Notes under the pieces: model-generated
Seen by the model: the letters and a program-made list of their open reading frames with translations, nothing else
Told to the model about the DNA's origin: nothing
The model's database searches: none
Program-made: the position numbers and the translations under genes
Shown here: piece after piece, positions 32,995 through 37,018 of the stretch
Layout of the letters: the number at the start of each line of letters is the position of its first letter
Position numbering within the stretch: the stretch's first letter is position 1
Assembly (NCBI GenBank): GCA_016790225.1
Contig: JAEUOZ010000057.1
Location: forward strand, 1 to 52,817
Direction: 5' to 3'
Source: Rubrivivax sp.
GTDB lineage: Bacteria; Pseudomonadota; Gammaproteobacteria; Burkholderiales; Burkholderiaceae
DNA: 52,817 nucleotides

Positions 32995-33124
32995 CTCTTC
33001 AGTCACGCCGACTGCCGCCGGGTCACCGGATACCGACGCATGCCGCGCCGGTTGCCCACATTGCGCGGGCTGTGCGCAAGAAAGGCCGGAAGGCCGATTG
33101 GGAAGGAGTGGTTCACATGGCTGA
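32987..33124 (+). CDS. Candidate 45-residue Cys-rich peptide between bchZ and pufB
   Basis: A GTG-initiated frame overlapping the bchZ stop (GTGTCTGA) and ending 8 nt inside pufB. A perfect AGGAGG Shine-Dalgarno (32975-32980) sits 6 nt before the GTG, the strongest ribosome site in the region. The peptide has four cysteines, C19, C23, C26 and C29 (CxxxCxxCxxC), in the segment [16 protein letters not shown]. It occupies the position of pufQ in Rhodobacter but shows no similarity to PufQ and has no membrane span. Either a real metal- or cluster-binding micropeptide or a leader whose translation couples bchZ to pufB. Not a recognised family. Confidence 0.4.
33061..33095 (+). promoter_or_regulatory. 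Paired small hairpins upstream of pufB
   Basis: TTGCGC/GCGCAA (33061-33066 and 33074-33079, 7-nt loop) is followed by GGCC-GGAA-GGCC (33084-33095), a GNRA-type tetraloop stem, then the pufB ribosome site. In purple bacteria the 5' end of puf mRNA carries stability hairpins; a similar role here is inference. The hairpins lie inside the candidate 45-codon frame. Confidence 0.4.
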
Positions 33125-33263
33125 ACGTAGAGGCTCGATTTCGGGCCTGAACGATGAGGAAGCCCAGGAGTTCCACCAGTACTGGGTTCAGGGTTTCGTG
33201 GGCTTCACGGCGGTCGCTGTGGTGGCCCACATCCTGGTCTGGATCTGGCGGCCCTGGTTCTAG
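33117..33263 (+). CDS. pufB: Light-harvesting 1 beta polypeptide
   Basis: 48 residues. The cytoplasmic N-terminus is followed by one helix. Conserved histidines are H20 (EFHQY) and H38 ([10 protein letters not shown]), 18 apart as in all LH1 beta chains; H38 ligates bacteriochlorophyll a. The protein ends in WRPWF, the typical beta terminus. A GGAAGGAG site precedes ATG 33117. The next gene is not pufA but a 78-codon relative of pufB. Confidence 0.97.
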
Positions 33264-33290
33264 GAACCGCAGTGTGAAAAGGGGACAGTC

Positions 33291-33527
33291 ATGACAACCC
33301 AGGTAAAGCCCTATCCGCAGCAACAGACCACGGCACAGACGGCGGAAAAACCCGACGCCTTTCTCGTGATCTTCGTTTCGGCCTTTGTGGTGTTTGCGGC
33401 GATTGCGCTCATCAGCCAAGTCCTGGGTTTCCCATGGCGGTCCTGGTTACCCGGTGCCGAGGGCGTCAAGTCGGTATTCGGGGGCGTGAAGGCGGCGGTT
33501 TACACCTTCATGTCACATCTTCAATAG
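33291..33527 (+). CDS. PufB-like polypeptide lacking both pigment-binding histidines
   Basis: 78 residues, one predicted membrane helix. Residues 19-53 align without gaps to PufB 14-48 with 12 of 35 identities, including F, V, F, V, F, A, A, L and the WRxW end. At the two conserved positions H20 and H38 of PufB it has L25 and Q43. It adds a 20-residue Gln/Thr-rich N-terminus and a 25-residue C-terminal tail ([19 protein letters not shown] onward). AAAAGGGGA precedes the ATG; it starts 27 nt after pufB and ends 11 nt before pufA, so it is an integral puf gene. The resemblance suggests a beta-fold polypeptide that packs in or beside the LH1 ring without binding bacteriochlorophyll through histidine. 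Confidence 0.85.
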
Positions 33528-33538
33528 GAGCTCACCTT

Positions 33539-33721
33539 ATGTGGCGCATCTGGAAGCTGTACGACCCGCTTCGTGCGATGGTTGTCCAGGGCATCTTCCT
33601 GTTCGGGTTGGCGGCAATGATCCATCTGGTCTTGTTGTCCACGCCAACCTTCAACTGGCTCGATGGCCCTGCGGCAGCGCAAACGCTGAAGCAGAACGCC
33701 GCCATGCCCGCGAAGAAGTAG
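33539..33721 (+). CDS. pufA: Light-harvesting 1 alpha polypeptide
   Basis: 60 residues. [20 protein letters not shown] is a standard LH1 alpha N-terminus; H29 ([10 protein letters not shown]) is the bacteriochlorophyll ligand, and FNWLDGP closes the helix. The 17-residue Ala/Lys tail is hydrophilic. AGGAG precedes the ATG by about 9 nt. It is normally adjacent to pufB; here the two are separated by the pufB-like gene. Confidence 0.97.
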
Positions 33722-33746
33722 ATCTTCTTCTCGGCTGGTGGCCGGC

Positions 33747-33786
33747 GCGGACGGGGTGCATCGCTCCCCACGGGTACCCCGTCCGC
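33747..33786 (+). promoter_or_regulatory. pufA-pufL intercistronic hairpin
   Basis: Perfect 11-bp stem GCGGACGGGGT (33747-33757) with ACCCCGTCCGC (33776-33786), loop 18 nt, no T-run after it. In Rhodobacter a stable hairpin at this point protects the pufBA segment from 3' decay, giving more antenna than reaction-centre mRNA. Position and strength match; the same job is inferred here. Confidence 0.75.
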
Positions 33787-33848
33787 CCTTTACCGAAGAC
33801 AACGATCGCCGATGGCCCGCGGGCACGGCGACGCCGGAGGATCGACCC

Positions 33849-34673
33849 ATGGCGATGCTCAGTTTTGAACGCAAGTACCGGGTGCGCGGTGGCACCCTGG
33901 TGGGTGGCGACCTCTTCGATTTCTGGATGGGGCCGTTCTACGTCGGATTCTTCGGCGTCACCACCATCTTCTTCACCTTTCTCGGCACGGCCATGATTCT
34001 CTGGGGTGCGGCGTTAGGGCCCACCTGGAACCCCTGGCAGATCAATATCGCACCGCCGGACCTGAAATACGGCCTGCAGCTCGCGCCGCTGCGCGAAGGC
34101 GGCATCTGGCAGGTGGTCACGGTCTGCGCCATCGGCGCCTTTGTCAGCTGGATGCTGCGCGAGATCGAGATCGCGCGCAAGCTGGGCATGGGGCTGCACG
34201 TGCCTTTCGCCTTCGGCATGGCGATCTTCGCCTACGTCACGCTGGTGGTCATCCGCCCGGTGCTGATGGGCGCCTGGGGACACGGTTTCCCCTACGGCAT
34301 CTTCAGTCACCTGGACTGGGTGTCCAACGTCGGATATCAGTATCTGCACTTCCACTACAACCCGGCGCACATGATCGCCATCACCTTCTTCTTCACGACC
34401 ACGCTGGCCCTGTCGATGCACGGCGCGCTGGTGCTCTCGGCGACCAACCCGCCGTCGGGCGAAGTGGTGAAGACGCCCGATCACGAGGACACCTTCTTCC
34501 GCGATCTGGTCGGCTACTCGGTGGGCACGCTGGGCATTCACCGGCTGGGCCTGTTCCTGGCCCTGGCGGCCGTGTTCTTCAGCGCCGTGTGCATCGTCAT
34601 CAGCGGGCCCTTCTGGACGCGCGGCTGGCCGGAGTGGTGGAGCTGGTGGCTCGCACTGCCCATCTGGAAATGA
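33849..34673 (+). CDS. pufL: Photosynthetic reaction centre L subunit
   Basis: 274 residues, five transmembrane helices. [20 protein letters not shown] is the standard N-terminus. Bacteriochlorophyll and iron ligands fall in [18 protein letters not shown] and the segment around [24 protein letters not shown] precedes ATG 33849. The frame is open to 33738, inside the intercistronic hairpin, and is not used. L binds half of the special pair and QA/QB cofactors with M. Confidence 0.98.
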
Positions 34674-34685
34674 GGAGCGGCTGCC

Positions 34686-35663
34686 ATGGCTGAATACCTG
34701 AACCTCTTCACCCGCGTGCAGGCCACGGGGCCGGCCTCCGACGGCATCGAGCTGCCGGCCGGCAACAGCCCGCGCACCGGGCAGGCCTTCTTCGTGCATC
34801 TCTTCGGGCGCCTGGGCAATGCCCAGATCGGGCCGATCTACCTGGGCGGCCTGGGCGTGGCCTCGCTGCTGCTGGGCATGCTGTCGATCAACATCATCGG
34901 CGTGAACATGCTGGCTTCGGTCAACTGGAACCCGGTGGAGTTCATCCGCCAGCTCCCCTGGCTGGCCCTGGAGCCGCCGCCCCCCGGCTACGGGCTGAAG
35001 CTGCCGCCGATGAACCAGGGCGGCTGGTGGCTGCTCTCCGGCGGTTTGCTCACGGTCTCCATCCTGCTGTGGTGGGCACGCACCTACCGGCGCGCACGCG
35101 TGCTCGGCATGGGCACGCACATCGCCTGGGCCTTTGCCGCGGCGATCTGGCTGTTTCTGGTTCTGGGCTTCTTCCGTCCGCTGCTGATGGGCAGCTGGGG
35201 CGAGGCCGTGCCCTTCGGCATCTTCCCGCACCTGGACTGGACGGCCGCGTTCAGCCTGCGCTACGGCAACCTCTTCTACAACCCGTTCCACGCGCTGTCC
35301 ATCGTCTTCCTCTACGGCTCGGTGCTGCTCTTCGCGATGCACGGCGCCACCATCCTGGCCGTGAGCCGCTACGGTGGCGACCGCGAGATCGACCAGATCG
35401 TCGACCGCGGCACGGCCAGCGAACGCGCGGCGCTGTTCTGGCGCTGGACCATGGGCTTCAACGCCACGATGGAGTCGATCCACCGCTGGGCCTGGTGGTT
35501 TGCGGTGCTCACGCCGCTGACCGGCGGCATCGGCATCCTGCTCACCGGCACCGTGGTCGACAACTGGTACCTGTGGGCGGTCAAGCATGGTTTTGCCGTT
35601 CCCTACCCTGCCGTGCCGATCATTGCCGATCCGGCCACGATGATCCAAGGAGTCAAGCCATGA
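34686..35663 (+). CDS. pufM: Photosynthetic reaction centre M subunit
   Basis: 325 residues, five transmembrane helices. [20 protein letters not shown] opens the protein; [38 protein letters not shown] and [20 protein letters not shown] contain the chlorophyll, iron and quinone-site histidines. TGAGGAG overlapping the pufL stop gives the ribosome site. The C-terminal extension ATMIQGVKP is typical of reaction centres with a bound cytochrome. The stop overlaps the pufC ATG. Confidence 0.98.
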
Positions 35664-37018
35664 AGCCCACGCTCTGGATCGCCCTGCTGGGCATGGCCGC
35701 CCTGCTGGCCGCGTGCGAACGGCCCCCGGTGAAGAGCACGCAGACCGGCTACCGCGGCACGGGCATGGTGCAGGTGGAGAACCCTCGCATCCTGGCCAAG
35801 CAGCGGGCGATGGAAGCCGACGTGCCCGAGATCGCGCCGGCACCGCCTGGCGCGGAAGGACCCAAGGCCAAGGACGTCTTCCAGAACGTCAAGGTGCTGG
35901 GCGAGCTCTCGGTGGGCGACTTCACGCGCCACATGCTGGCGATCACGCAATGGGTGTCCCCGACAGAAGGCTGCGCCTACTGCCATACCGACAACCTGGC
36001 CGATGACAGCAAGTACCAGAAGGTGGTGTCGCGTCGCATGATGGAGATGACACGCACCATCAACACGACGTGGAAGCCGCATGTGGCCGACACGGGCGTC
36101 ACCTGCTTCACCTGCCACCGCGGCAAACCGGTGCCGCAGAACGTCTGGTTCACCACGCCCCAGGCCAAGGGCAACCGGGTCGGCCCGGGCCTTGGCGAAG
36201 ATGCCGGGCAGAACAAGGCCGAGCCGGCCATCGCCTACGCCTCGCTGCCCTACGACCCCTTCACGCCCTTCCTGCTGCAGGAAGAGCCGATCCGCGCGCA
36301 GGGCAATACCGCGCTGCCCACCGGCAACCGCATGTCGATCAAGCAGGCGGAGTGGACCTACAGCCTCATGAACCACATGAGTGCGGGCCTGGGCGTGAAC
36401 TGCACCTTCTGCCACAACACGCAGTCCTTCCAGTCCTGGCAAGGGCCGCCCCAACGCGCCACCGCATGGCACGGCATCCGCATGGCGCGCAGCCTGAACA
36501 AGGACTATCTCGCGCCCTTGACGGCCAGCTTCCCGGCGCACCGGCTCGGGCCCACGGGAGATGTGGCCAAGATCAACTGCGCCACCTGCCACCAGGGCGT
36601 CTCCAAGCCGCTGCGCGGGCTGCAGATGGCCAAGGACTTCCAGGGGCTGATCCAGGTGGCCGCCGTGACCACGGGGAACCTGCCGCCGCCGGTGTCCGAA
36701 GCGCTGCGGGCGGTGATGTACTTCCCGGTCGGCTCCCCGGTACTGCAGGGTGAACAGGCCAAGGGTCTGGAGCGCCTGATCGTCACGATGACGGAGCGCA
36801 AGCGCGCCGTGGCCACCATCTCCGGCTACCACTCGGCGGCGGGCACCTTGGCCGCCAACCAGGAACTGGCCAAGCAGCGGGCCTTCACCGTGCGCGACGC
36901 CCTGCTGGCCGCTGGTGTGGGTGCCGACCGCGTGCGGCTGGAGAAGCCGCAGCAGACGGAAGCCAACGTGGCCGGTGAAGACCCGGTGGCCCGGCGCGTG
37001 GAAGTGGCGGTGCGTTGA
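35660..37018 (+). CDS. pufC: Reaction-centre tetraheme cytochrome c with C-terminal OmpA-like domain
   Basis: 452 residues, about 100 longer than usual PufC. Lipoprotein signal with lipobox LAAC (C19). Four CxxCH heme sites: CAYCH at 105, CFTCH at 149, CTFCH at 248 and CATCH at 307, with nearby methionines as axial ligands. After about residue 345 a domain of OmpA/MotB type begins ([40 protein letters not shown]; ends RRVEVAVR). Such domains bind peptidoglycan; the usual GHTD aspartate is replaced (SGYHSAAG) while the QRA arginine is kept. The cytochrome re-reduces the special pair. The start overlaps pufM; crtA follows after 53 nt. Confidence 0.95.

Follow-up and report, generated by a model that had tools for sequence, protein, structure and literature searches.

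Between pufB and pufA of a Rubrivivax sp. puf operon lies a third antenna-type gene, here termed X, the product of which is very probably a paralogue of the LH1 beta chain PufB that lacks both pigment-binding sites. We favor, with a probability of about 45%, the reading that X is a resident pigment-free LH1 subunit derived from a copy of a long-tailed beta chain. The window, i.e., the whole stretch of DNA that was analyzed, comprises 52,817 nucleotides (assembly GCA_016790225.1, contig JAEUOZ010000057.1, positions 1 to 52,817 of the forward strand), and all features given below are on its plus strand. X, recognized from the list of open reading frames and from homology searches, occupies 33291..33527, begins with ATG, encodes 78 residues, and ends with TAG. 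The sequence AGGGGA (33280..33285), which resembles a ribosome-binding site, is separated from the ATG by five bases, in agreement with the sequence-only reading of X as a 78-codon gene with a ribosome site of its own.

X starts 27 bases after the end of pufB (33117..33263) and is followed after 11 bases by pufA (33539..33721). The former encodes a tail-less chain of 48 residues that retains both histidines and scores above the cut-offs of PF00556 and NF040862; the latter encodes 60 residues and scores above those of PF00556 and NF040861. Further downstream are pufL (33849..34673; reading frame and tblastn conservation), pufM (34686..35663; reaction center M chain in a phmmer search of PDB chains, E 4e-167), and pufC (35660..37018). 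The pufA-pufL gap (33719-33855) contains a GC-rich hairpin of -65.8 kcal/mol (z -1.9). The pufC product matches PF02276 (E 1.7e-135) and carries an additional C-terminal OmpA-like domain (PF00691, residues 354-428, E 5e-10). A similar domain lies beyond the pufC core in 15 of the 80 loci that extend at least 600 bases past it; the two R. gelatinosus loci (L006 and L014) do not have it.

The kinship of X with PufB was evident from direct comparison. Residues 19-53 of X align with residues 14-48 of the neighboring PufB without gaps, and 12 of these 35 positions, counted by hand, are identical, which is the number reported earlier; BLASTP finds 12 identities in 37 positions (E 5e-7). In the gap-free alignment, His20 of PufB corresponds to Leu25 of X, and His38 to Gln43. 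Beyond the aligned part X has 18 N-terminal and 25 C-terminal residues; tails of 20-25 residues had been ascribed to each side by the sequence-only reading.

Database searches bear out the proposal that a pufB paralogue lies between pufB and pufA. The best PDB match of X is the LH1 beta chain 8z81_B (phmmer, E 1.4e-10), and a profile built from 54 X relatives again places LH1 beta chains first (E 5.2e-16). No PDB chain close to X was found, the best matches of both the sequence and the profile search being pigmented beta chains; among PDB chains, the nearest relative of R. gelatinosus PufM is that of 9m8m, the sequence of which differs. In profile-profile comparisons, the nearest kin of X are long-tailed PufB proteins, defined as those with at least 15 residues after the WRxW motif (99.4%, E 2e-21), and the values are 97.0% (E 1e-10) for a set of PufQ-like proteins described below and 96.7% (E 4e-10) for short PufB. 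The alternative that X belongs to another characterized family failed. Standard family models nevertheless miss X: PF00556 does not match it at E ≤ 10 and matches 2 of the 54 relatives (best E 0.2), and the pufB equivalog NF040862 gives 15.7 bits against a cut-off of 61 bits. These low scores may explain why some records label X as hypothetical; many JGI entries among its relatives are labeled LH1 beta.

Codons 21-45 of X (33351..33425), modeled by AlphaFold as a helix with pLDDT of 82-89 and having a mean hydrophobicity of 0.74, are the predicted membrane helix on the basis of homology and hydrophobicity. Residues 1-18 have pLDDT below 50, and a second helix is predicted at residues 62-77, within the C-terminal tail formed by codons 54-78 (33450..33524). 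The conservation of these parts was assessed in 239 distinct aligned rows, which combine the 120 listed proteins with the X proteins from the window and from the loci numbered up to L164. The conserved part of X is the tail, and the membrane helix is variable: the mean frequency of the most common residue is 0.95 in columns 62-73 and 0.61 in columns 21-45. The loss of the two histidines, correctly described by the sequence-only reading, is general, as each is missing in 238 of the 239 rows. Codon 25 (33363..33365) and codon 43 (33417..33419) each specify histidine once, in loci L016 and L100; the L100 protein is the sole row with histidine at the main bacteriochlorophyll-ligand position (ALVGHLL).

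Glutamine can ligate the magnesium of chlorophyll in other proteins. Position 43 is glutamine in 179 rows, which might suggest that X still binds bacteriochlorophyll, with Gln43 replacing the histidine. The remaining 60 rows, however, have K (23), S (14), L, T, A, R, E, V, G, C, or H (1) at this position, the second histidine position is free, and the helix is the variable part of the protein; we therefore regard this reading as very improbable.

Contrary to the earlier impression that X is unusual, it belongs to the commonest arrangement among PufM-bearing genomes of its order. A protein search with X returned 592 related sequences among 593 candidates at E ≤ 10, of which the best 120 were listed, and the alternative that all relatives lack X failed. 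From a genome scan that gave 92 loci, the best 80 were taken as the X-selected set, including R. gelatinosus (L006 and L014), R. benzoatilyticus (L007), Piscinibacter, Limnohabitans, and Hylemonella. The pufB-X-pufA order is conserved in them: pufA follows X in 80 of 80 loci and pufB precedes it in 79 of 80, the one other locus (L002) starting too late to show pufB. In one listed protein (P0011), a 132-residue open reading frame, PufB and X are joined in frame, possibly through an assembly frameshift.

To avoid selection on X, genomes were also sampled by PufM, which was found in 64 of 399 genomes of the family of R. gelatinosus, 48 of 399 of the order (4 shared with the family sample, 44 new), and 31 of 398 of the phylum (27 new). 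The puf stretch was read in 63 of the 64, 44 of 44, and 27 of 27 genomes, respectively. The family genome outside this count (G167) has a match to the X profile of 112 bits; because this profile also matches PufB, raw profile tallies are not counts of X. In the family sample, 53 genomes have short PufB with X, 7 have long-tailed PufB without X, 1 has short PufB with a PufQ-like gene, and 2 (G379 and G215) have no antenna genes in the fetched stretch. The corresponding numbers in the order sample are 34, 5, 3, and 2. X is absent from all 27 genomes of the phylum sample, which comprise 10 with short PufB and PufQ, 10 with long-tailed PufB and a PufQ-like gene, 4 with long-tailed PufB alone, and 3 with short PufB alone. 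Altogether, X is present in 87 of 130 readable genomes and in 87 of the 103 from the family and order samples.

X is under purifying selection. Its median dN/dS is 0.065 (430 pairs), compared with 0.045 for the tail alone (813 pairs) and 0.088 for PufB (1136 pairs); the pairs, which were those differing at 3-20% of nucleotides, share members and so are not independent. This supports the view of X as a separate gene within the LH1 section of the operon. The failure of the Pfam and NCBIfam antenna models to recognize X would be in keeping with a duplicate gene in decay or an artefact of annotation, but the low dN/dS, the conserved order, the lack of internal stops in the X matches of the family-sample genome scan, and transcript evidence for ORF74 (PMC10037100) leave this explanation with next to no credibility.

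ORF74 is one of two published reading frames with which X can be compared. The puf operon of R. gelatinosus is described as containing two reading frames without assigned function, one of which, ORF2, lies directly upstream of pufA, has no central histidine, and was compared with PufA and with PufA proteins of Gemmatimonadota (PMC12817894, citing Nagashima 1994). In Roseateles depolymerans, ORF74 has a locus tag that falls between the tags of pufB and pufA; it is reported to be transcribed together with both, as part of the major 1-kb puf transcript, and to be one of the three loci that changed most (PMC10037100). ORF2 shares with X its place and the missing central histidine; ORF74 shares its place and, if 74 is the number of codons, a length typical of X. 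By place and length, X is very likely the ORF2/ORF74 of these reports. The literature searched yielded no assigned role for X, ORF2, or ORF74, and the main text of PMC10214105 does not mention Rubrivivax. The gene itself has thus been sequenced before; its kinship and tail pattern appear to be new within the papers searched.

The origin of X is best approached through the long-tailed PufB proteins (PDB 8z81_B, 9m8m_B, and 7xxf_B; PufB of Burkholderiales, 76 residues), which share with it a helix and WRxWLPG region alignable without gaps, a C-terminal tail, a single membrane helix, and the location in the puf operon. X differs from them in lacking both histidines, in having a distinct N-terminus that varies among its relatives, and in the stronger conservation of its tail. 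A model of one long-tailed PufB has helices at residues 14-45 and 55-75, the tail being of low confidence; the models of X and of this PufB share the plan of helix plus tail helix. Five order-level genomes that lack X have a PufB with both histidines and an X-like tail: DGVKAAVNSFMPYVFMA in L187 and L211, DGVKAAVSSFLPYVYMA in L209, EGIKAAVYNVVPYAFMG in L153, and DGVKAAANTITPYMMS in L154. The tail GVKAAV[N/S]SF[M/L] is found on the histidine-bearing PufB of L187, L209, and L211, and related tails on that of L153 and L154. A profile of the X helix alone scores long-tailed PufB at a median of 36.5 bits (n=12, 20.6-38.9), short PufB at 15.8 bits (n=90, -1.6 to 40.3), and PufQ-like proteins at 19.9 bits (n=6). 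Together with the profile-profile values, these medians fit a duplicated long-tailed beta chain, the jobs of which were divided, although individual short PufB proteins reach 40.3 bits, level with long-tailed PufB. The most likely ancestor of X is a copy of a long-tailed beta chain, of which the tail was retained and the pigment sites disappeared.

Presence and absence of genes point in the same direction. Antenna genes were classified in 211 loci (5 further loci had none): 167 have short PufB with X, 1 has X with pufB off the contig, 26 have long-tailed PufB without X, and 17 have short PufB without X. Ten genome-sample loci repeat X-selected ones; their removal leaves 201 distinct loci, 157 of which have short PufB with X, the other classes being unchanged. 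X occurs together with long-tailed PufB in none of the 201. Nor does it occur in any of them with PufQ or a PufQ-like gene, this absence being less sure in 20 X loci in which the sequence ahead of the pufB open frame is shorter than 350 bases. On a PufL+PufM tree (61 rows, 59 scored), X changes five times, with two independent pairs on supported branches, and a sign test is not significant. With only two such pairs, the pattern may reflect shared ancestry; resting on two to five independent changes, the mutual exclusion of X and tailed PufB, PufQ, or PufQ-like genes is suggestive rather than proven. Three X rows (L044, L098, and L099) fall among long-tailed rows, and another (L010) near the outgroups, both placements being weakly supported.

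The avoidance of PufQ fits a non-structural role equally well: X might do the job of PufQ, as a small single-helix protein, produced along with the antenna, that steers tetrapyrroles to bacteriochlorophyll or assists in passing pigment to LH1 while the latter is assembled, without being a lasting member of the ring. PufQ (PF05398) has about 75 residues, one helix, a conserved C-terminus, and a location in the puf operon, all in common with X. In Rhodobacter it binds ferrochelatase and directs flux to bacteriochlorophyll, and not every purple bacterium is said to have it (PMC5725709). PufQ or a PufQ-like gene is present in 24 of 43 loci without X (10 of the 26 with long-tailed PufB and 14 of the 17 with short PufB) and in none of 168 with X. 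The plan of an N-terminal tail, one helix, and a conserved C-terminus is similar, and so are the size and the tail. True PufQ and X match at 53% (E 1.4e-4, 28 columns), a higher probability than that between true PufQ and the PufQ-like set (17.6%, E 0.0014, 55 columns; hhalign). In the window, the 122 bases between bchZ and pufB match neither a PufQ nor a PufQ-like profile, and the latter has its best match in the window with X itself (20.6 bits). The strongest argument for retaining this alternative is genome G122 (L089, minus strand), which has a PufQ-like gene of 90 residues upstream of pufB instead of X. It belongs, with no fixed position inside, to a PufLM clade (100/99) whose other 36 rows all bear X, and its PufB is still short.

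Against such a role, PF05398 (cut-off 22.1 bits) does not match X and matches 1 of 54 relatives at E 0.11, X lies downstream of pufB and pufQ directly upstream, and X resembles PufB more closely than it does the PufQ-like set. Moreover, in 12 of the 103 genomes of the order that could be read, PufB is long-tailed and both X and PufQ-like genes are missing; hence X is not a simple stand-in for PufQ. In our opinion, a PufQ-like role is less likely than that of a resident subunit but a close rival to it.

The PufQ-like set joins PF05398 weakly. Of 37 genomes searched, 10 were found to have true PufQ, above the cut-off and upstream of pufB; all 10 belong to the phylum sample. The PufQ-like set consists of reading frames upstream of pufB with the place and plan of PufQ; none of the 14 genomes holding them exceeds the cut-off, the best score of five proteins scanned being 15.4 bits. 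Short reading frames at the pufQ place in L145-L151, L156, L164, L175, L176, L179, and L181 resemble both PufQ and long-tailed PufB, and none of the genomes concerned exceeds the PF05398 cut-off. Judged by place and plan, the upstream reading frames may be PufQ, which may thus be more widespread than annotated. The PufQ-like set matches long-tailed PufB at 97% in profile-profile comparison. A rather unlikely but broader scheme would have one interchangeable puf tail module, supplied by PufB, X, or a PufQ-like protein, with PufQ-like proteins being ancient pigment-free LH1 beta paralogues and X a second, independent invention in Burkholderiales.

The reading of X as a resident subunit draws on its homology with beta chains, the missing pair of histidines, the constancy of the tail, purifying selection, the conserved gene order, the complementarity with long-tailed PufB, the similar model plan of X and a long-tailed PufB, and the co-transcription of ORF74, presumably X, with pufB and pufA (PMC10037100). 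A long-tailed, histidine-bearing PufB would have been duplicated, after which X would have retained the tail but not the bacteriochlorophyll sites, and PufB the pigment sites but not the tail. X, presumably made from the common high-level pufB-X-pufA message, would most likely form a single, pigment-free helix of the RC-LH1 core, next to the beta chains or between them. Its near-invariant C-terminal helix, periplasmic if X is oriented in the membrane like PufB, might hold a neighbor, such as the reaction center, the cytochrome subunit, or an adjoining beta chain. We infer the direction of the evolutionary steps, as well as the presence of X in the complex, its copy number, topology, and partner. 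The scores of X below the antenna cut-offs, the short PufB proteins that equal long-tailed ones on the helix, the few independent changes of X, and genome G122 count against this reading; short PufB with neither X nor PufQ in L155, L182, and L183 indicates that the tail is not needed everywhere.

Pigment-free single helices beside beta chains have been described as gamma and gamma-like subunits in Blastochloris and Rhodopila, the latter lying between beta chains (PMC9640540). X is likened to them by analogy; the Rhodopila helix has 22 residues and the opposite orientation. The sequence-only reading had instead suggested that X could be a ring-gap, quinone-channel, or assembly polypeptide, a role that it ascribed to the unrelated PufX in Rhodobacter; as a functional counterpart of PufX, X would be present once per complex at a ring gap or quinone gate. 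A beta-like chain replacing a pigmented one would indeed interrupt the ring, and PufX, by analogy, is also an additional single-helix polypeptide encoded in the puf operon. However, pufX follows pufM (operon pufQBALMX; PMC5725709), and X lies in the pufB-pufA segment; no sequence link turned up in the general homology searches. The location of X in this segment, and the reported change of its presumed homologue ORF74 in the manner of antenna genes, suggest more than one copy per reaction center. A ring-gap or quinone-channel role is thus possible, without being specifically favored over a gamma-like or PufQ-like one, and a one-per-complex gate seems improbable to us.

Most sampled phototrophs of the order, including the long-used model Rubrivivax gelatinosus, thus encode a third, pigment-site-less antenna-type polypeptide between their LH1 genes. 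Should X prove to belong to the core, the RC-LH1 models of this group would lack a component. If X instead stands in for PufQ, it bears on the regulation of the haem/bacteriochlorophyll branchpoint in bacteria without PufQ, a question raised in PMC5725709.
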